DNA of 46,011 bases, taken from Chitinophagales bacterium. Lineage in GTDB: Bacteria > Bacteroidota > Bacteroidia > Chitinophagales > LD1. Shown here piece by piece: positions 4,420 to 42,942 of the stretch. Positions within the stretch are counted from its first letter, which is position 1; each line of letters opens with the position of its first letter. The DNA lies in the NCBI GenBank assembly GCA_025057415.1, contig JANWXI010000011.1:1-46011 (forward strand), written 5' to 3'. The notes below the pieces were generated by a model. The model was not told where the DNA came from. It did no database searches and saw nothing but the letters and a program-made list of their open reading frames with translations. Made by a program: the position numbers and the translations under genes.

Positions 4420-4589
4420 CCGGGTGAGGGATGCGTAGGGCGCGAGCGCAGCGAAGCGGCCGCGCCCGTACCTTTGAATAATCAAAAAAACTTACGGGCG
4501 CGGCGGGAGCGAAAGCGTACCCCGTAGCCAGCCCGACCCCGCGGCGGCGCGGAGCTTTGCGGAGTGCCGCCGCGGGGGCACCCCCAAAA
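4420..4589 (-). repeat. Structured 3'-flanking repeat, copy 1
   Basis: First of three copies (others at 21321-21479 and 35411-35578) of a GC-rich element of about 160-170 bp. Hairpin A pairs 4459-4470 with 4493-4504 (12 bp perfect), and its loop carries TTTGA/TCAAA, which can pair as an inner stem. Hairpin B pairs 4537-4550 with 4564-4577 (13 pairs plus one G-T). A short GGGGG-CA-CCCCC palindrome follows. The element ends 28 bp past the TonB receptor stop codon. Strand is given as that of the upstream gene, because all copies have the same orientation relative to it. No open frame inside it looks like a real gene. Confidence 0.9.
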
Positions 4590-21320: not shown

Positions 21321-21479
21321 CCGGGTGAGGGATGCGTAGGGCGCGAGCGCAGCGAAGCGGCCGCGCCCGTACCTTTGAAAAATCAAAAAATTTACGGGCG
21401 CGGCGGGAGCGACAGCGTACCCCGTAGCAAGCCCGACCCCGCTGCCTTGCATGGCTTGGCAGCGGGGGCACCCCCAAAA
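21321..21479 (-). repeat. Structured 3'-flanking repeat, copy 2
   Basis: Second copy of the element. Hairpin A pairs 21360-21371 with 21393-21404 (12 bp perfect) with the same TTTGA/TCAAA loop as copy 1. Hairpin B pairs CCCCGCTGCC (21437-21446) with GGCAGCGGGG (21458-21467); this stem differs in sequence from copy 1 yet is perfectly paired. It ends 47 bp past the glpD stop codon. Flanks of copies 1 and 2 are unrelated outside the element, which sets its limits. Confidence 0.9.
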
Positions 21480-29597: not shown

Positions 29598-31262
29598 ATG
29601 ATGTCCATCTGCAAAAGCACTAGGATTGTATTGCTCATTACCGGCGCCTGCATGGCGTTGCTATCGTTTAGGCAGGTCAACTTTTTTGATATTACAAAAA
29701 ATTTAGATATATTTATTTCTTTATACAAAGAGCTGAACACCTATTATGTGGACACCCTGCAACCCGATAAGCTTATCAAGGCGGGTGCCACAGCCATGTT
29801 GGATGATTTGGATCCCTACACCGATTTTATCCCGGAAGAAGACATGGATGAATACCGCATACAAACCACGGGTAAATACGGAGGAATAGGAGCCATTATC
29901 GGTACCCGGGGTGAATGGGTAACCATAACCGAGCCGTACGAGGGGTGCCCGGCTGCAAAAGCCGGTTTAAGGGCAGGCGATAAAATCATTGAAGTAAACG
30001 GCAAAAGTACCCGTAACCAAAAGACCGATGAAGTCAGTTCCATGCTGAAGGGTAAACCCGGTACCACGGTACAGGTGAAAATCAGGCGGCTTACGGCCGA
30101 TGGCTCCGAACAAGATATGACCGTAACACTTACCCGCGAAGAAATCAAAATCAAAAACGTACCCTACTACGGCATCATCGAAGAGGGCATCGGGTATATA
30201 CGTTTAATTAACTTCACCGACCGCGCAGGAGCAGAAGTACGTATGGCATTGCAACAAATGCAATCTAAGGCAAAACTCAAAGGAGTTATTCTGGATGTGC
30301 GCGGCAATCCGGGCGGACTGCTTCACGAAGCCATCCATGTAGCGAATGTATTTGTGGATCGCAACGTAGAGATAGTTTCCACCAAAGGCAAAATGAGCGA
30401 ATGGGATAAAACCTTTTTTACCACACAGGATCCTGTAGATACAAAAGTGCCGTTAGTGGTGCTGGCAGATGGAGGATCTGCATCTGCCAGCGAGATCGTA
30501 AGCGGTGCACTGCAGGATCTGGACCGTGCTGTGATCATCGGGCAAAAAACATACGGAAAAGGTCTGGTGCAAAGTACCCGTTCGCTACCATATGGCGCCA
30601 AGCTCAAAATCACAACGGCAAAATACTACATACCCTCCGGACGTTGTATCCAGGCCATTAACTATGCTGAGCGCAACGAAGACGGCAGTGTGAAGCATAT
30701 CCCCGATTCGCTCAAAAACGCCTTTAAAACGCGCAACGGGCGCACGGTGTATGACGGCGGCGGTATAGACCCCGATATTGTTACCGAACCCGAAAAGCTC
30801 GCCAACATCACAGCATCTCTGGTGAGCAAAGGACTGCTGTTTGATTACGCCAATCTGTTCCGGGCGCGGCACGAGTCGATCCCGGATGCCGCCTCCTTTG
30901 CACTTACGGAAGAGGAGTACGACGCTTTTGTGCAATGGTTGGCTGGCAAAGAATATGATTACACCACTGAAAGCGAAAAAATGCTGGAAGAACTCAAGGC
31001 GGCTTCTGAAAAAGAAAAATATTACGAGTCGCTGCGCACTGAACTGGAGAGTTTGAAGAAGAACATGTCGCACGATAAGCTAAACGATTTGAAAAAAGCC
31101 AAATCACAAATCAAAAGCATGCTGGAAGAGGAAATTGCCTCGCGGTATTACCTCAGTAGCGGACGTATTGCAAACTCTATTCGCTCTGACGGTGACATCC
31201 GAAAGGCCGTAGAGATACTGCGCGATGAACAACAGATGAAAAAAATATTAGCTAAAAAATAA
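29598..31262 (+). CDS. S41 family C-terminal processing protease (first copy)
   Basis: This 554-aa exported protease has an N-terminal signal/anchor helix, a CTP N-domain (ELNTYYVDTLQPDKLIKAGATAMLDDLDPYTDF), a PDZ domain (about 85-165; KYGGIGAIIG, AGLRAGDKIIEVNG), the S41 core, and a long charged helical C-terminus. The catalytic Ser lies in GGSASASEIVSGALQD and the Lys in IIGQKTYGKGLVQ. It trims C-termini of exported proteins by a Ser-Lys mechanism. The start is one of two adjacent ATGs (29598/29601). It is followed after 15 bp by a paralogue of the same architecture. Confidence 0.93.
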   Translation: MMSICKSTRIVLLITGACMALLSFRQVNFFDITKNLDIFISLYKELNTYYVDTLQPDKLIKAGATAMLDDLDPYTDFIPEEDMDEYRIQTTGKYGGIGAIIGTRGEWVTITEPYEGCPAAKAGLRAGDKIIEVNGKSTRNQKTDEVSSMLKGKPGTTVQVKIRRLTADGSEQDMTVTLTREEIKIKNVPYYGIIEEGIGYIRLINFTDRAGAEVRMALQQMQSKAKLKGVILDVRGNPGGLLHEAIHVANVFVDRNVEIVSTKGKMSEWDKTFFTTQDPVDTKVPLVVLADGGSASASEIVSGALQDLDRAVIIGQKTYGKGLVQSTRSLPYGAKLKITTAKYYIPSGRCIQAINYAERNEDGSVKHIPDSLKNAFKTRNGRTVYDGGGIDPDIVTEPEKLANITASLVSKGLLFDYANLFRARHESIPDAASFALTEEEYDAFVQWLAGKEYDYTTESEKMLEELKAASEKEKYYESLRTELESLKKNMSHDKLNDLKKAKSQIKSMLEEEIASRYYLSSGRIANSIRSDGDIRKAVEILRDEQQMKKILAKK

Positions 31263-31277
31263 ATATATCCGGTGGTC

Positions 31278-32933
31278 ATGAAGCGGATTTTACCAGGCAT
31301 TACAGCAGCAGCGGGTATAGCAGCGATAACGGCATTTACCGACCGATACTTTGAACTATCCAAAAACATAGAAGTATTTTCTTCGCTCTACAGAGAAGTA
31401 AACACGTATTATGTAGATGACGTAGAGCCCAGTAAACTGATGCGCAACTTTCTGGATGGCATGCTCAAGACCTTAGACCCTTACACAAATTACTTTTCGC
31501 AATCGCAGATTGAAAAAGCCCGCATACAGCAGGGTGGGAAGTTTGGCGGTATAGGCATTGAGATAGACACCATGCGTGGCTATCCGGTGGTTACGGCTGT
31601 ATGGAAAGACCAACCAGCCGACAAGGCAGGCATTCAACCCGGAGATGTCATTCTCTCTATTGACGGCTCCACAACGCTCAACCGTCAAAAAGAGGATGTG
31701 GAGAAGTTTCTGACCGGAGAGCCCAAGAGCCGTATCATACTTCAGATAGAGCGAAAAATATCTTCGTCAGAAACCAGGCAACTGCATCTGAATCTGATGC
31801 GCGAAGAGATTCAGGAAACGAATGTGCCTTTCTTTGGGATGATTACCCCGGAGATTGGTTGCATCAAACTCAAAATTTTCAATGAACATGCCGCGCAGGA
31901 TGTGCGACGCGCTTATGATAGTTTAAAGAACATTCAGCCCCGGCTCAAAGGGTTGATATTAGATTTGCGGGGTAACCCCGGCGGGCTGATGCTGGAGGCC
32001 GTTGAGATTGTGAACATGTTCATTGAGAAAGATAAGCTGGTGGTAGCCACCAAAGGCAAGGTGGACGAGTGGAACAACACTTTTAAAACCAAATCAGACC
32101 CGGTGGATTTGCAAATACCGATTGCCGTGCTGGTTAACTCGGGCAGCGCCTCAGCATCAGAGATAGTGAGCGGTGCACTGCAGGATTATGACCGGGCAGT
32201 TATCATCGGGCAAAAAACCTTTGGTAAAGGTTTGGTGCAAATTACACGACCTCTCTCTTACAATACCATGCTGAAAGTGACCACCGCAAAATACTACATA
32301 CCTTCGGGGCGTTGCATTCAGGCCATCAACTATGCCGAGCGCAATGAAGACGGAAGCGTGAAACGCATCCCCGACTCGCTTAAGCGCGAGTTTAAAACCT
32401 CGGCTGGCAGAAAAGTGTGGGATGGAGGCGGTATTGACCCCGACATACCGTTGCCAAAACCGGAGCTGAGCGCTGTAGCCCAGGCCCTGGAGCGCCAGCA
32501 TCTGATATTTGATTTTGCTACCCTATATACCCTGCAAAAAAATAATCTTGAAGACCCTGCAACCTTCAAGCTAAGCGAAAAAGATTACAACGACTTTCTC
32601 GCCTTCATCCGTTCACGCGGATTTGCATACCGCACCGAAACCGAGCAGAAACTGGAAAAACTGAAGCAAATTGCAACAGACGAGAAATACTTTGACGCCA
32701 TTCAGCCCGCCCACCAACAATTGATAAAAAAAATAGCCAACGAAAAAGAACAAGACCTTATGCGCCACAAAGGCGAGATTATCACTCTTTTAGAAAATGA
32801 AATCGTGGGGCGTTATTACTACGCATACGGTAAGGTGAAAAAGAGTTATCAGAACGATGCAGAAGTTGCCCGGGCGGTGCAGTTACTCAACCAGCCAGAT
32901 GAGATTAAAAAAATATTGAGCGCTAAAAATTAA
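31278..32933 (+). CDS. S41 family C-terminal processing protease (second copy)
   Basis: A 551-aa paralogue of the preceding protease with the same order: N-terminal hydrophobic anchor (1-20), CTP N-domain with EVNTYYVDDVEPSKL, PDZ (KFGGIGIEIDT, AGIQPGDVILSIDG), S41 core and C-terminal helices. The catalytic Ser is in SGSASASEIVSGALQD and the Lys in QKTFGKGLVQ. The segment around KYYIPSGRCIQAINYAERNE is identical in both copies, while the PDZ and C-terminal regions have diverged. The ATG at 31278 is used; a GTG two codons earlier is open. Its end overlaps the convergent OM-like gene by 11 bp. Confidence 0.93.
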   Translation: MKRILPGITAAAGIAAITAFTDRYFELSKNIEVFSSLYREVNTYYVDDVEPSKLMRNFLDGMLKTLDPYTNYFSQSQIEKARIQQGGKFGGIGIEIDTMRGYPVVTAVWKDQPADKAGIQPGDVILSIDGSTTLNRQKEDVEKFLTGEPKSRIILQIERKISSSETRQLHLNLMREEIQETNVPFFGMITPEIGCIKLKIFNEHAAQDVRRAYDSLKNIQPRLKGLILDLRGNPGGLMLEAVEIVNMFIEKDKLVVATKGKVDEWNNTFKTKSDPVDLQIPIAVLVNSGSASASEIVSGALQDYDRAVIIGQKTFGKGLVQITRPLSYNTMLKVTTAKYYIPSGRCIQAINYAERNEDGSVKRIPDSLKREFKTSAGRKVWDGGGIDPDIPLPKPELSAVAQALERQHLIFDFATLYTLQKNNLEDPATFKLSEKDYNDFLAFIRSRGFAYRTETEQKLEKLKQIATDEKYFDAIQPAHQQLIKKIANEKEQDLMRHKGEIITLLENEIVGRYYYAYGKVKKSYQNDAEVARAVQLLNQPDEIKKILSAKN

Positions 32934-34980: not shown

Positions 34981-35410
34981 GTAGCAAAGATAATGTACGG
35001 GAATATGAACCTTAAAAAAAGTTATTCGCGAGTCGAAACGGCAAAGTTTTAAAGTTTATCCATAGAAAAAGTAAGCAACAGGTAATGTTATTATTAAGTA
35101 TTTCTGAAGATGCGTAAACAAGCATGTGCGGAAATGGAAGATGTGCAGTTAATTCTGATAAACAGGGAAAACTCGTTTATCAGTAAAAATGTAACGGCTG
35201 TCCGAGGGAGGAAAACTGAAAGCGTTTTGTCGTTACACATCAAACTTTGCTGAAAGCACAAAGTACATTTATAGATATAAAAGTAACTTACGGTGAGGTG
35301 TTAGGGAGGGAGGCGTTTACATACTGTGCAGCCGGTTTGGCGAAGGGTATAACAGTGGGAACCAGTTGTGAGTAATGTAAAAGATGCGTTTGCCATGTTT
35401 ATATCTTTTT
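34981..35410. other. Intergenic with a perfect 9-bp inverted repeat
   Basis: No gene is supported in these 430 bases. CTGATAAAC (35155-35163) and GTTTATCAG (35175-35183) are perfect inverted repeats around an 11-base spacer. No T tract follows on either strand, so it is not a standard terminator; it could be a protein-binding site or a small RNA hairpin. The rest is AT-rich. Confidence 0.45.
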
Positions 35411-35578
35411 CGGGTGAGGGATGCGGAGGGCGCGAGCGGAGCGAAGCGGCCGCGCCCGCACCATTGTTTAAAATATATAATTGCGGGCGCGGCGGGAGCA
35501 ATAGCGTACCCCGTAGCAAGCCCGACCCTGCTGCGGCGCGTGAGGCACGAGCGGGACGCAGCGGGGGCACCCCCAAAA
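35411..35578 (-). repeat. Structured 3'-flanking repeat, copy 3
   Basis: Third copy of the element. Hairpin A pairs 35449-35460 with 35482-35493 (12 bp perfect); here the arms read CCCGCA/TGCGGG instead of CCCGTA/TACGGG, a compensatory double change. Its loop sequence is unrelated to copies 1 and 2. Hairpin B pairs CCCTGCTGCG (35526-35535) with CGCAGCGGGG (35557-35566), with one T-G pair. An inner CGTG-AGG-CACG can also fold. It ends 68 bp past the galE stop codon. Confidence 0.88.
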
Positions 35579-35646
35579 TATAAAAAACCGTAATTATATA
35601 TTAATAAAATAAATAATGTAAAAATGTGCCGGGATGTGTGATGGAA

Positions 35647-38877: not shown

Positions 38878-41800
38878 ATGCGTGTACTGTTACATAACGC
38901 CATTACACTATGCTGTGTGGTTTTATTGTGCCACACGGGGTTATACAGCCAGCAATGTAACGTGATTTATGTGACGCCTAACGGTGCCAGCAGTGGCAAT
39001 GCTGGCACGCGTACCAACCCGGCATCGTTGCAATATGGACTTACATTAGTGAATGCCACCACCAACAAGATTTGGATGGCGGTAGGCACATACAACATCA
39101 ATACTGAATTGCAACTGGTCAATAATCTAACGCTTGAAGGAGGTTTCGATCCTGTTACCTGGACCAAGAGCAATGCTGCGGCAACCATCATTAACCGCAC
39201 CTCGCAAAACGTGTTACCTGCGCCTGCCAACGGAATTGCGGCTATATTCGGAGCTTTTGTTAGTGGCTTTCGCCTGCAGGATTTAACCATTACGGTTGAA
39301 GTACCCGGTGCTACGGCTGCCTCGGCTTATGGTATTTACCTGAATTTCTGCAGTAACTATCATATTGTTCGCTGCAACGTGAGCACCACGGGTGGCGCCC
39401 CCGGCGCTAATGGTGTAGATGGCGCACCGGGCGCCAATGGAGGTGACGGTCAACCCGGAGTAAACGGTGGTTTGGAACCCCCCAAGCCGGGCGGTGCAGG
39501 GGGTGTAGGAGGGTACAATGGTGGCAATGGCGCTAATTCGGGCGTACATGGCAGTGTGGGTCCTCCGGGACAAACAGGGGGAGGACCTTGCGGAGGCGCC
39601 GGAGGTACAACAGGCACCGGGCCATCGTGCAGTTTCGGTTGTACGTTTGGAAGCCCCAGTTGCGGAAGCGCCACCCCCGGTCAGCCAGGGCAAGCCGGCG
39701 GACCTGGAACGAACGGCGCTAATGGCGCACCAGGACCTCCAGGCACTATACAGGCTCCCGGTTATTTTGTTCCCGGAGCTCCGGGCGGAAACGGCGCCCC
39801 CGGTACACACGGATGTGGAGGAGGCGGTGGAGGAGGCGGCGGCGGACGTCAAAACAACGGACTGGATGATGTGGGCGGCAGCGGTGGGGGCGGTGGAGGC
39901 GGCGGTTATGGTGGGCAAGGTGGCACAGGAGGTGGTGGCGGTGGGGGTTCGTTTGCCGTATTCATATATAATAATGGAGCAGGAGGCAACATTGTAGATT
40001 GTAACCTTTCGGCCGGACCCGGCGGTGCCGGAGGACAGGGCGGAGCCGGAGGCCCCGGCGGAGCCGGAGGGCAAGGCGGACCGGGCGGCGGACCGGGATG
40101 CGGTAATACCCCCGGTGGTGCAGGAGGACCGGGCGGACCCGGCGGGGCAGGCGGAAATGGCGGAAACGGTGCTCCCGGAATGAGTCAAAACCTTTACGTA
40201 AACGGCACAGCTCCCAACCAATCCAACATCACATCTGTTCCCGGCAACCCACCCGTTATTACAGTGCTCAACAACGGATGTGCCAATGCCGAAGTACAGT
40301 TCTCCTCTACTTCACCAGGTAGCTGGAACTTCGGGGCGGGCGCTAACCCGCCTACGGCAACCGGCGTAGGTCCCATCCATGTGTTATATTCCACTACCGG
40401 CAGAAAAACCATCACCTTCAACGGCACTGTTTTCACAGATTTTATAGACATTTTCACCAACCCGCTCAGCGGCAGTACCATTACACATACCAATAATCCC
40501 GCTACCAACGGTTGCCCTGACACTTTTACCACTACCCTCACCGGTAGTTTTTACGAGTGGGAATTCGGAAGCGCAGCTTTGCCCCCCACTGCTTCCGGCG
40601 CTACACTGCAAAGCACCAGCGTGGTGTTTACCACTCCCGGTACATACAAAGTTATCGTATGGGTTACCACCCCATGTTGTGGCAGAGTAAAGGACTCTCT
40701 GACTATCACAGTACAACCCAATACGCTGCCTATTTCTTTATCTGCTTCGGCTAATTCTGTATGCGCCGGTCAGCCCATTACTTACACTGCTTCGCCTGCC
40801 AACTACATCCAATACACTTTTATCGTAAATGGCACACCAGTTCAAACGTCTGCTTCCAATACTTATGTAGCCAACGGATTGCAACAAGGCGACAGTGTAG
40901 TGGTGTTGGGTTTTAACGGAATATGTTACTCAAATCCCAGCTCGGTACATTACCCTACTATAATACCGGTACCAACTGTCACTATCACCAGTTCCGATGC
41001 TGATAATACTATATGTAGCGGTGAGCTGATTACTTTCACGGCAACGCCTGCAGGATACGATAATTACGCCTTTTACAACGGCAGCTCCCTGCAGCAATCC
41101 GGGCCTTCAAACGTATGGAGCACTACGCAATTGGGGCAGGGCAACAGTGTTTACTGTATTGCTACCGAAAACGGATGTAACAGCCCGCAAAGCAATGTAA
41201 TCGTTACGATAGTTAATCCCACTCCATTTGTCACCATTTCTACCCCCAACACTACGATTTGTGACGGTGACAATATCACCATTACGGCCTCCCCCGCCGG
41301 GCTTGACAACTACCAGTTTTTTGTAAACGGAAACCCGGTACAAAACAGCAACTCCAACACTTACTCCTCGTCATCTTTCAACAACGGAGATGTGATAACC
41401 GTTATAGGCACACTCAATAATTGTCCCAGCCCCCTAAGCCCCGATATTACTCTCACCGTAAATCCGTTGCCCTCCGTAACACTCAACAGCAGCGATGCTG
41501 ATAACTCCATCTGCGAAGGAGAAACGATAACCTTTACTGCCAATCCTCCGGGATATACATCTTATCAGTTTCTCAATAACGGCACAGTGTTACAAAACAC
41601 CTCTTCTCATACCTATACTACTTCATCATTACAACCGGGCAACAGTATTACAGTGATAGCCGTGAACAACGGCTGCACCGGAGCGCCCAGCAATGCAGTG
41701 AACGTTGCCGTACAGCCCGCTCCTGTTGTAAATGCAGGAGCTGATGCGGCTGCTTGCATAGATGCTGGAGCGCAAACGCTCAATGGTTTTTCACCTCCGG

Positions 41801-42942
41801 GAGGCACCTGGTCTGGTACGGGTATTACCAATCCCGCCGGGGAGTTTACTCCTGCATCTGCAGGGGCAGGCGCCTGGTGGATATACTATTATTACGCAGA
41901 TCCCTCTACGGGTTGCTCCGGACGCGACAGCGTGCGTTTTACTGTGTTTGCCCTGCCTAATATTGGGCTTGCATCATCCGTAAATATATGTGAGGGCGAT
42001 GGCACTACCCTCAACGCCAGCGGCGGCACCACTTATAACTGGAGCCCGGCTACCGGCCTAAGCAGTACGTCAGTCGCCAACCCCACAGCATCCCCAACAA
42101 CCACTACTACGTACAATGTTACTGTTACCGATGCCAACAACTGCAGCAACAGCGCCGCTATTACCGTTAACGTGAATCCGAATCCGGTCCCCTCGTTTAC
42201 CGTACAGGATGTTTGTGCCGGGCAGCCCAGCGTGTTTATCAACAATACCACACCTCCCAACGCATCCTTTAGCTGGAGTTTTGGCGATGGCAACACATCT
42301 GCAGCAACTTCCCCCTCTCATACTTATGCAGATTCAGGTACATACATCGTAACGCTTACCGCCACTCTTGGCGGATGCTCCGTTACTTATACTAATACAG
42401 CAACCGTACATCCCGCCGCACAAGCCGACTTTTCAGCCAATCCGCTTACGGGATACAGCGATGCCAGTTCTCCGATTGTATTCACCAACCTTTCCACCCA
42501 CAGCGATTCCTGGAGCTGGAATTTTGGAGATGGCAAAAGCAGCACAGCCCAGTCGCCTGCACATATCTATGAAGAACCGGGTATTTACACCGTTTCGCTC
42601 ACTGCTTACAATCCGTACGGCTGCAACAGTACCATAACCAAAACCAATTACATTCAGATTTTTGAATTGCCGCGCGTATTTATCCCTACGGCATTTTCGC
42701 CCAACGGAGACGGAGCTAATGATGTATTGCGCGTTTTAACCAGCGGTACGAAGTATTTCCAATTTAAGCTGTATAACCGTTGGGGCGAAAAAGTATTTGA
42801 AACCAATAACTCATTGGACGGATGGGATGGCAAGTACAAAGGAATAGACCAACCGATGGGCGTATATGTTTACACGCTGAATGTCGCTTTTGAAGATAAC
42901 ACTACACGGGTCATAAAAGGTTCGGTAACCCTATTGCGTTAA
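38878..42942 (+). CDS. Giant Gly-rich, Ig/PKD-repeat T9SS-exported surface protein
   Basis: A 1354-aa protein. Signal peptide (1-24); a beta-helix/DUF1565-like segment (about 28-170; NPASLQYGL, NNLTLEGGFDP); a Gly/Ala/Pro-rich region (about 170-434) of irregular G-x-x and GGxGG repeats; two PKD-like domains (about 455-615); four tandem repeats of about 82 aa (about 615-950), each with IC-x-G-x-x-IT-x-TA-x-P and a conserved NGC; further Ig/PKD domains; and a type B (CHU_C) sorting domain from VFIPTAFSPNGDGAND to the end. This is typical of SprB-like gliding or adhesion proteins, but with an unusual collagen- or PE_PGRS-like tract. It has no paralogue neighbour; a strong opposite-strand shadow frame in the Gly-rich part is an artefact. 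Confidence 0.9.
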   Translation: MRVLLHNAITLCCVVLLCHTGLYSQQCNVIYVTPNGASSGNAGTRTNPASLQYGLTLVNATTNKIWMAVGTYNINTELQLVNNLTLEGGFDPVTWTKSNAAATIINRTSQNVLPAPANGIAAIFGAFVSGFRLQDLTITVEVPGATAASAYGIYLNFCSNYHIVRCNVSTTGGAPGANGVDGAPGANGGDGQPGVNGGLEPPKPGGAGGVGGYNGGNGANSGVHGSVGPPGQTGGGPCGGAGGTTGTGPSCSFGCTFGSPSCGSATPGQPGQAGGPGTNGANGAPGPPGTIQAPGYFVPGAPGGNGAPGTHGCGGGGGGGGGGRQNNGLDDVGGSGGGGGGGGYGGQGGTGGGGGGGSFAVFIYNNGAGGNIVDCNLSAGPGGAGGQGGAGGPGGAGGQGGPGGGPGCGNTPGGAGGPGGPGGAGGNGGNGAPGMSQNLYVNGTAPNQSNITSVPGNPPVITVLNNGCANAEVQFSSTSPGSWNFGAGANPPTATGVGPIHVLYSTTGRKTITFNGTVFTDFIDIFTNPLSGSTITHTNNPATNGCPDTFTTTLTGSFYEWEFGSAALPPTASGATLQSTSVVFTTPGTYKVIVWVTTPCCGRVKDSLTITVQPNTLPISLSASANSVCAGQPITYTASPANYIQYTFIVNGTPVQTSASNTYVANGLQQGDSVVVLGFNGICYSNPSSVHYPTIIPVPTVTITSSDADNTICSGELITFTATPAGYDNYAFYNGSSLQQSGPSNVWSTTQLGQGNSVYCIATENGCNSPQSNVIVTIVNPTPFVTISTPNTTICDGDNITITASPAGLDNYQFFVNGNPVQNSNSNTYSSSSFNNGDVITVIGTLNNCPSPLSPDITLTVNPLPSVTLNSSDADNSICEGETITFTANPPGYTSYQFLNNGTVLQNTSSHTYTTSSLQPGNSITVIAVNNGCTGAPSNAVNVAVQPAPVVNAGADAAACIDAGAQTLNGFSPPGGTWSGTGITNPAGEFTPASAGAGAWWIYYYYADPSTGCSGRDSVRFTVFALPNIGLASSVNICEGDGTTLNASGGTTYNWSPATGLSSTSVANPTASPTTTTTYNVTVTDANNCSNSAAITVNVNPNPVPSFTVQDVCAGQPSVFINNTTPPNASFSWSFGDGNTSAATSPSHTYADSGTYIVTLTATLGGCSVTYTNTATVHPAAQADFSANPLTGYSDASSPIVFTNLSTHSDSWSWNFGDGKSSTAQSPAHIYEEPGIYTVSLTAYNPYGCNSTITKTNYIQIFELPRVFIPTAFSPNGDGANDVLRVLTSGTKYFQFKLYNRWGEKVFETNNSLDGWDGKYKGIDQPMGVYVYTLNVAFEDNTTRVIKGSVTLLR

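Follow-up and report, generated by a model that had tools for sequence, protein, structure and literature searches.

The element that occurs three times in the 46,011-nt window (the whole stretch of DNA analyzed here, from a Chitinophagales bacterium) is probably a structured, non-autonomous REP/MITE-like DNA repeat, and would represent an amplified, derived subtype of an intergenic repeat that is found throughout the Bacteroidota and has Flavo-1 as its core in Rfam. It does not serve as a device for gene 3' ends. A repeat comparison of the 46 kb recovered a 124-base three-copy family, which is not due to chance, and alignment together with HMM edges bore out the three copies in the same orientation that had been recognized in a first-pass annotation, all on the minus strand (Table 1), with flanks that showed no mutual similarity. 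Read on this strand, the layout is TTTTGGGGGTGCCCCCGC-[hairpin B]-GCGGGGTCGGGCT...-[hairpin A]-...CGCATCCCTCACCCG, with CAGGGTCGGGCT instead in copy 3, and GGGTG/CACCC form the terminal inverted repeats of all three copies. Hairpin A, GCCGCGCCCGTA/TACGGGCGCGGC, has the 12 pairs described at first pass, and the compensatory change in copy 3 was read directly on both sides. The arms of hairpin B had been called almost entirely different between copies, which is overstated, since the outer pairs are near-constant; the inner arm varies and, as claimed, mostly stays paired. The near-constant linkers, GCGTACCCCGTAGC and GGGGGCACCCCC, were likewise present between the hairpins.

Table 1. Positions of the three element copies and of their parts in the window
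Feature	Position	Strand	Basis or remark
Element copy 1 (type 1)	4420..4589	-	HMM edges, alignment
Copy 1 outer end, 5' arm GGGTG	4579..4583	-	complementary to 4422-4426
Copy 1 hairpin B	4537..4578	-	
Copy 1 hairpin A	4459..4504	-	
Copy 1 outer end, 3' arm CACCC	4422..4426	-	
Element copy 2 (type 1, short hairpin B)	21321..21479	-	HMM edges, alignment
Copy 2 outer end, 5' arm GGGTG	21469..21473	-	
Copy 2 hairpin B	21437..21468	-	
Copy 2 hairpin A	21360..21404	-	
Copy 2 outer end, 3' arm CACCC	21323..21327	-	
Element copy 3 (type 1)	35408..35578	-	HMM edges, alignment
Copy 3 outer end, 5' arm GGGTG	35568..35572	-	
Copy 3 hairpin B	35526..35567	-	
Copy 3 hairpin A	35449..35493	-	
Copy 3 outer end, 3' arm CACCC	35412..35416	-	

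The repeat is abundant in its own genome. A strict two-ended pattern gave at least 164 exact matches there (reversed control, none) and a single match in 118 other genomes, and a DNA search returned at least 40 matches, all of the best 40 of 304 candidates matching. In 38 contigs comprising 1,025,572 bases, 60 full copies were located by searching for anchors, each of which could contain one mismatch; the copy density of this sample is biased, since 18 contigs (the window's included) were chosen as known carriers and the other 20, taken by number, skipped contigs earlier found to match. Type 1, the subtype of the window copies, accounted for 34 full copies, followed by type 2 (13 copies, marked by a GTGCTCCACTGCGTTACGCAC module), type 3 (10 copies, marked by CAAGTCCTCG...GGGCTTTCCGCT) and type 4 (two copies), while the one copy left unclassed by the script looks like type 1 by eye. 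Aligning 40 full-length matches from the first 626 kb revealed common ends and a common hairpin B, the latter in at least three forms by eye, and differing inner parts. At least four inner hairpin modules lie between the common ends in the subtypes of this genome, and the units are thus mosaics of hairpin cassettes between fixed ends. The copy number, the unrelated flanks and the intergenic sites support the earlier description of a dispersed REP/MITE-like repeat, and the element combines the high copy number, intergenic location and palindromic structure by which REP are recognized.

Further modules adjoin some copies in this genome. A 120-bp module, D1, was found 13 times (e.g., among L032-L071), of which 12 immediately followed the element on its downstream side and the 13th lay at a contig end, and a module D2 (23 finds, 14 of them near an element) follows D1 or often lies at contig ends; some copies are therefore composites of several hundred bases. 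A number of copies were located within 300 bp of contig ends, so that assembly probably stops at the repeat, which would have more copies than were counted.

The first-pass annotation had placed the copies 28, 47, and 68 bp past minus-strand stop codons (copies 1, 2, and 3, respectively), in agreement with our independent gene calls, and had proposed a 3'-UTR or post-stop preference. Pfam supports upstream genes encoding a TonB receptor (copy 1), a GlpD/alpha-glycerophosphate-oxidase-type protein (copy 2) and an NAD epimerase/dehydratase (copy 3), the last being GalE-like, of a subtype that Pfam does not distinguish. An element of 3'-UTRs, or a terminator, linked to the ends of genes would account for all three window copies following a stop codon in the same orientation, but as a general rule this was contradicted when orientation to genes was tabulated across the 1.03 Mb sample, in line with the check that the annotation had proposed. 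None of the 60 full copies overlapped a gene called by our hexamer script, which will miss small genes. Among the 51 copies with genes called on both sides (nine at contig edges were left out), 23 had a gene end and 28 a gene start facing the 5' side of the element, as compared to expected gene-end shares of 37% (by length) and 44% (by number) under random intergenic placement (binomial P 0.31 and 0.89, respectively). These 51 copies lay in 26 tandem, 17 divergent, and eight convergent contexts, and gaps with an element were long, with medians of 400-787 bp by class versus 33-199 bp without one. Among relatives of the same genus, the element faced a gene end at 8 of the 16 loci that could be used (40 loci scanned; 16 without a recognized motif and eight duplicates dropped). 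Since orientation is about even in the genome sample, the arrangement in the window, with a probability of 5-9% for all three copies, is compatible with chance, and no intrinsic terminator (GC hairpin followed by a T run) was found around any of them. We therefore rejected the post-stop preference on the placement counts in the own genome and the genus relatives, and regard a role tied to gene ends as very improbable.

Three other features of the window were noted. A promoter-like match on the element's own strand (35593-35622, minus strand; 11 of 12 positions of the sigma-70 consensus) lies just upstream of copy 3, and may mean nothing as Bacteroidota promoters differ. The ORF at 38878-42942 (plus strand) contains a glycine-rich tract of 9-base repeats (39755-40178) that is possibly collagen-like, and a 239-base direct repeat of 78% identity (30492-30730 and 32160-32398) lies inside two adjacent ORFs, where tandem gene duplication is likely.

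The conserved fold claimed at first pass is supported by changes on both sides of the helices and by covariation above slid controls. In an alignment of 39 type-1 copies from the own genome (out of 57 scanned loci; the window copies being L001, L013, and L098), two helices had 94.6% of cells paired, 6 of 22 pairs carried changes on both sides, and the covariation score was 0.120 as compared to at most 0.058 in slid controls. A second alignment, A2, consisted of rows from 18 relatives picked for a short hairpin B and matching outer ends; 8 of its 19 given pairs changed on both sides, with covariation of 0.326 versus at most 0.107, and its outer-end helix was 100% paired because rows had been chosen for matching ends, leaving helices 2-4 as independent there. 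On the other hand, further pair types did not exceed shuffles in either alignment (11 against a mean of 12.7 for type 1, with shuffles that do not control for common descent, and 14 against 13.3 for A2), which qualifies the covariation result and counts against the mobile-DNA reading.

The outer ends were therefore not judged from A2, but from 34 copies comprising 33 pattern loci outside the own genome and L073, which provide a fair test for this helix. In 33 of these, the five letters after ATCCCT were the reverse complement of a 5-mer at most 110 bases upstream of GGGCT, as opposed to 58 of 828 cross-pairings between different 5-mers from other copies; as the nearest match is taken, chance may account for a few of the 33 at this 7% background, and in L206 and L219 the test landed on an inner copy of the 5-mer. 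The single exception was L200. Eight 5-mers occurred among the 34 copies (GCGTA, GCGTT, GCGTG, GGCTT, GGGTT, GCATT, GCGCA, and GGGCA), and GGGTG of the window is a ninth. The base next to GGGCT paired with its partner in 32 of 34 copies (TA/TA in 21, TT/AA in nine, and TG/CA in two), with the mismatched TT/TA in the other two. Moreover, a compensating double change from G-C to A-T separates the orthologous copies L199 and L205, which belong to two congeners and have adjoining DNA of 93% identity on one side. Between the helices, TCCGCTNC is present on both sides and faces itself, forming a symmetric internal loop that is kept in sequence.

Paired changes might also arise from template-switch correction of palindromes at replication, with the repeats being passive and their fold not under selection. 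The 15 type-3 hairpins fit such a process, as they vary in arm sequence, yet contained 183 Watson-Crick pairs and two other mismatches in 185 cells, with no G.T and no A.C. However, the outer ends are complementary across some 65-155 nt (across genomes) with other hairpins between them, and the internal loop is kept in sequence, and we accordingly give this explanation little weight. The strand that folds did not emerge from these data. Asymmetry of G.T and A.C was tried as a pointer and abandoned, as the hairpins contradict each other, with seven G.T versus 32 A.C in hairpin B and 21 versus eight in hairpin A (both read on the minus strand), and when folding energies were compared, the sense strand had the lower value for 17 of the 39 copies of type 1 and for 5 of the 18 relatives, neither strand being clearly favored. 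This contradictory strand evidence speaks against the mobile-DNA reading as well.

A search of 119 genomes with the type-1 consensus produced a single short match outside the own genome. Type 3, however, carries the core GGGCTNNCCGCT...TTTCCGCTNNNATCCCT, which recurs in further genomes from the same genus, order, and class. The relaxed pattern GGGCTN{2,4}CCGCTN{30,60}TTTCCRCTNNNATCCCT occurred in 12 of the 119 genomes and in 9 of 395 genomes drawn from the phylum, the own genome included in both counts and the controls giving none. When 15 relative loci were submitted to Rfam, 14 were listed as Flavo-1 (RF01705), three of them over the gathering score, and L073 was unlisted; in a second set, 6 of 11 loci reached it, two of the six being L254, the Flavo-1 positive control, and L199, carried over from the first set. 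Canonical relatives scored up to 60 bits against RF01705, the threshold for membership being 42 bits. In contrast, RF01705 matched none of the three window copies at E ≤ 10, none of 13 own-genome loci of types 1-4, and nothing among the best 150 of 409 candidates in the own genome, and an Rfam scan of the window gave nothing over threshold. A model built from 18 relatives, R1, was then applied reciprocally to 29 of 30 RF01705 loci (L265 was left out) and matched all 29 at E ≤ 1 and 24 at E < 0.001. In the window, R1 ranked the three copies first to third with weak scores (18.6, 13.3, and 12.3 bits; E 0.011, 0.27, and 0.48), closely followed by a fourth match of 11.7 bits that is not an element, a weakness that also counts against our reading of the copies as mobile DNA. 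Of the 18 genomes of the genus, 16 (the own included) contained the family according to R1, with from at least one to at least 35 matches each among the best 150 candidates per genome, and RF01705 itself was found in 56 of the 395 phylum genomes, many with at least 11 matches, a number reached in several genera of the same class.

Hence, we consider the window element related to Flavo-1, because types 1-4 share their ends, the canonical core is present in type 3, copies of the canonical kind score as Flavo-1, and R1 recognizes all Flavo-1 loci given to it; we infer this chain from shared parts rather than from a tree. Flavo-1 is the inner core common to the relatives of the window element, and is itself multi-copy. 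It differs in that the Rfam model, of 76 positions and on the opposite strand, lacks hairpin B and the complementary outer ends, whereas in the window copies the inner module is replaced. Taken together, these sequence comparisons suggest that the window element is a derived, amplified subtype related to the phylum-wide Flavo-1, a new variant within a known kind of repeat. A literature search, limited to main texts and to part of the journals, returned no description of the amplified subtype or of its modules, hairpin B and outer ends.

Rfam types Flavo-1 as "Gene; sRNA," and the element could accordingly be a genuine structured RNA, transcribed in many UTRs, folding to bind a protein or to protect mRNA, and kept for this function. 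The covarying helices and the conserved TCCGCTNC/TCCGCTNC loop would suit an RNA, as would the copies kept at orthologous positions, and Table 1 of Weinberg et al. (2010; PMC2864571) lists Flavo-1 as RNA "y" and cis-regulatory "n." Nevertheless, orientation to genes is not constant in the own genome or the genus, and no consistent G.U preference marks one strand. In the part of PMC9723704 available to us, Flavo-1 matches of F. psychrophilum are described on either strand of transcribed regions and in many cases elsewhere, and no clue to function is offered. We thus find an RNA function unlikely, although it deserves consideration, and retain the mobile-DNA reading.

Comparison between congeners showed both absence and persistence of copies. 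Locus L316 of genome G010 holds two copies (62.4 and 62.5 bits with R1). At the first site, which is flanked by genes, G005 shares DNA on both sides and has no R1 match in its stretch, while at the second G005 shares one side and has a match of noise level (11.9 bits, E 0.36) on the opposite strand, so that decay is possible there. In G013 and G016, the stretches with shared DNA next to the L316 sites likewise gave no R1 match. Neither of the two sites compared presented a clean empty site or a target duplication, which weighs against mobility; the adjoining intergenic DNA differs at both, and therefore no junction could be read. Orthologous copies that are kept in place between species, such as L199/L205, could instead mean a host function. 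Separately, an insertion in L247 (about 1664-1781), palindromic and about 117 bp long (CCATTAAGAAATTAAG...CTTAATTTCTTAATGG), is absent from a 93% identical relative (L245, about 1420); it adjoins a Flavo-1-type element and looks like a different MITE.

The ends of integron attC sites run AAC...GTT, those of the element GCGTT...AACGC, and an attC identity was dropped on these grounds. Terminal inverted repeats, the hallmark by which MITEs are recognized, were found in 33 of 34 relatives (5 bp) and in the three window copies. The Porphyromonas MITEs, which we take to be those named BrickBuilt, are like the element short non-coding repeats with complementary ends in Bacteroidota. In the element, unlike such MITEs, the complementary ends are about 5 bp long and differ between species, and neither a target-site duplication nor a parent transposon was found. 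Short non-coding repeats in Bacteroidota are documented for these MITEs in the available part of PMC4596501.

The element likewise resembles REP/BIME in being short, hairpin-forming, intergenic, high-copy, and modular, and might, as in Enterobacteria, be mobilized by a RAYT (Y1 HUH transposase). It differs in its length of about 160-170 bp with several hairpins, in having no conserved GTAG foot, and in the absence of a Y1 match over the cut-off from its genome. The RAYT-like transposase that the first-pass annotation suggested looking for gave no match above the Pfam cut-off in this genome, which is 94% complete and may thus still encode one, and the one sub-cut-off match lies at a site with no ORF of at least 60 aa on that strand. 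The other 17 of the 18 genus genomes do have Y1 over the cut-off, which argues for a RAYT, as does the presence of a strong family copy (84.6, 60.2, and 47.4 bits) at 3 of 29 genus Y1 loci, where 0.25 were expected from R1 density (Poisson P 0.002), and of a weak Y1 match about 230 bases from an R1 match in G007 (contig C1). Y1 is also commoner in Flavo-1 genomes, with 47 of 56 as opposed to 224 of the 339 others (Fisher P 0.008, with no control for relatedness), and atypical structures flank RAYT subclass 2.6 of Bacteroidetes in the portion of PMC6006769 available. However, the genome with the amplified subtype is the only one of the 18 without Y1 over the cut-off, nine of the 56 Flavo-1 genomes have no Y1 match, four of these with at least 11 Flavo-1 matches, and many genus Y1 genes are flanked by other hairpins by eye. 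One such hairpin, ATAGCCCACGGTTTAAACCGTGGGCTAT, was seen near L354 and L369 (set L344-L372). In addition, the GTAG/GTGG foot is not conserved in its second base, G-N-AG (in the complement of CCCTNCGC) having A, C, G or T among the 39 type-1 copies. The CGTC tag is absent from the 39-copy consensus, whose ends by eye are GGGGTG and CACCC; CGTC-tagged REP occur in Bacteroidetes among others, according to the part of PMC3733652 available. Mobilization by a RAYT therefore appears quite unlikely to us, and that no mobilizer was found also counts against the preferred reading of a mobile DNA repeat.

For such a repeat, we infer spread from its dispersal. The element would spread as non-autonomous structured DNA, as a single-stranded hairpin or a cruciform, and might be copied by machinery acting in trans that recognizes the ends in their folded form along with TCCGCTNC, the paired motif of the internal loop, while selection or palindrome correction may keep the arms paired. 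Going further, we tentatively raise the possibility, which at present we hold to be less than probable, that Flavo-1, instead of being an RNA gene, forms the core of transposable DNA of Bacteroidota that is non-autonomous and belongs to a new class; such a class would have a two-ended fold, co-evolving complementary ends serving as a private recognition code, interchangeable hairpin cassettes, and a mobilizer other than RAYT.

Flavo-1 has been catalogued since 2010 with no function given in the available parts of PMC2864571, PMC9723704, and PMC9029176, the last of which names it. Our data suggest that its boundaries can exceed the Rfam model, and that Flavo-1 may be one branch of a repeat family with multiple subtypes, of which one branch has multiplied in one genome. 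In conclusion, the question would shift from the function of Flavo-1 as an RNA to mobile structured DNA, and its mobilizer, in a major bacterial phylum.
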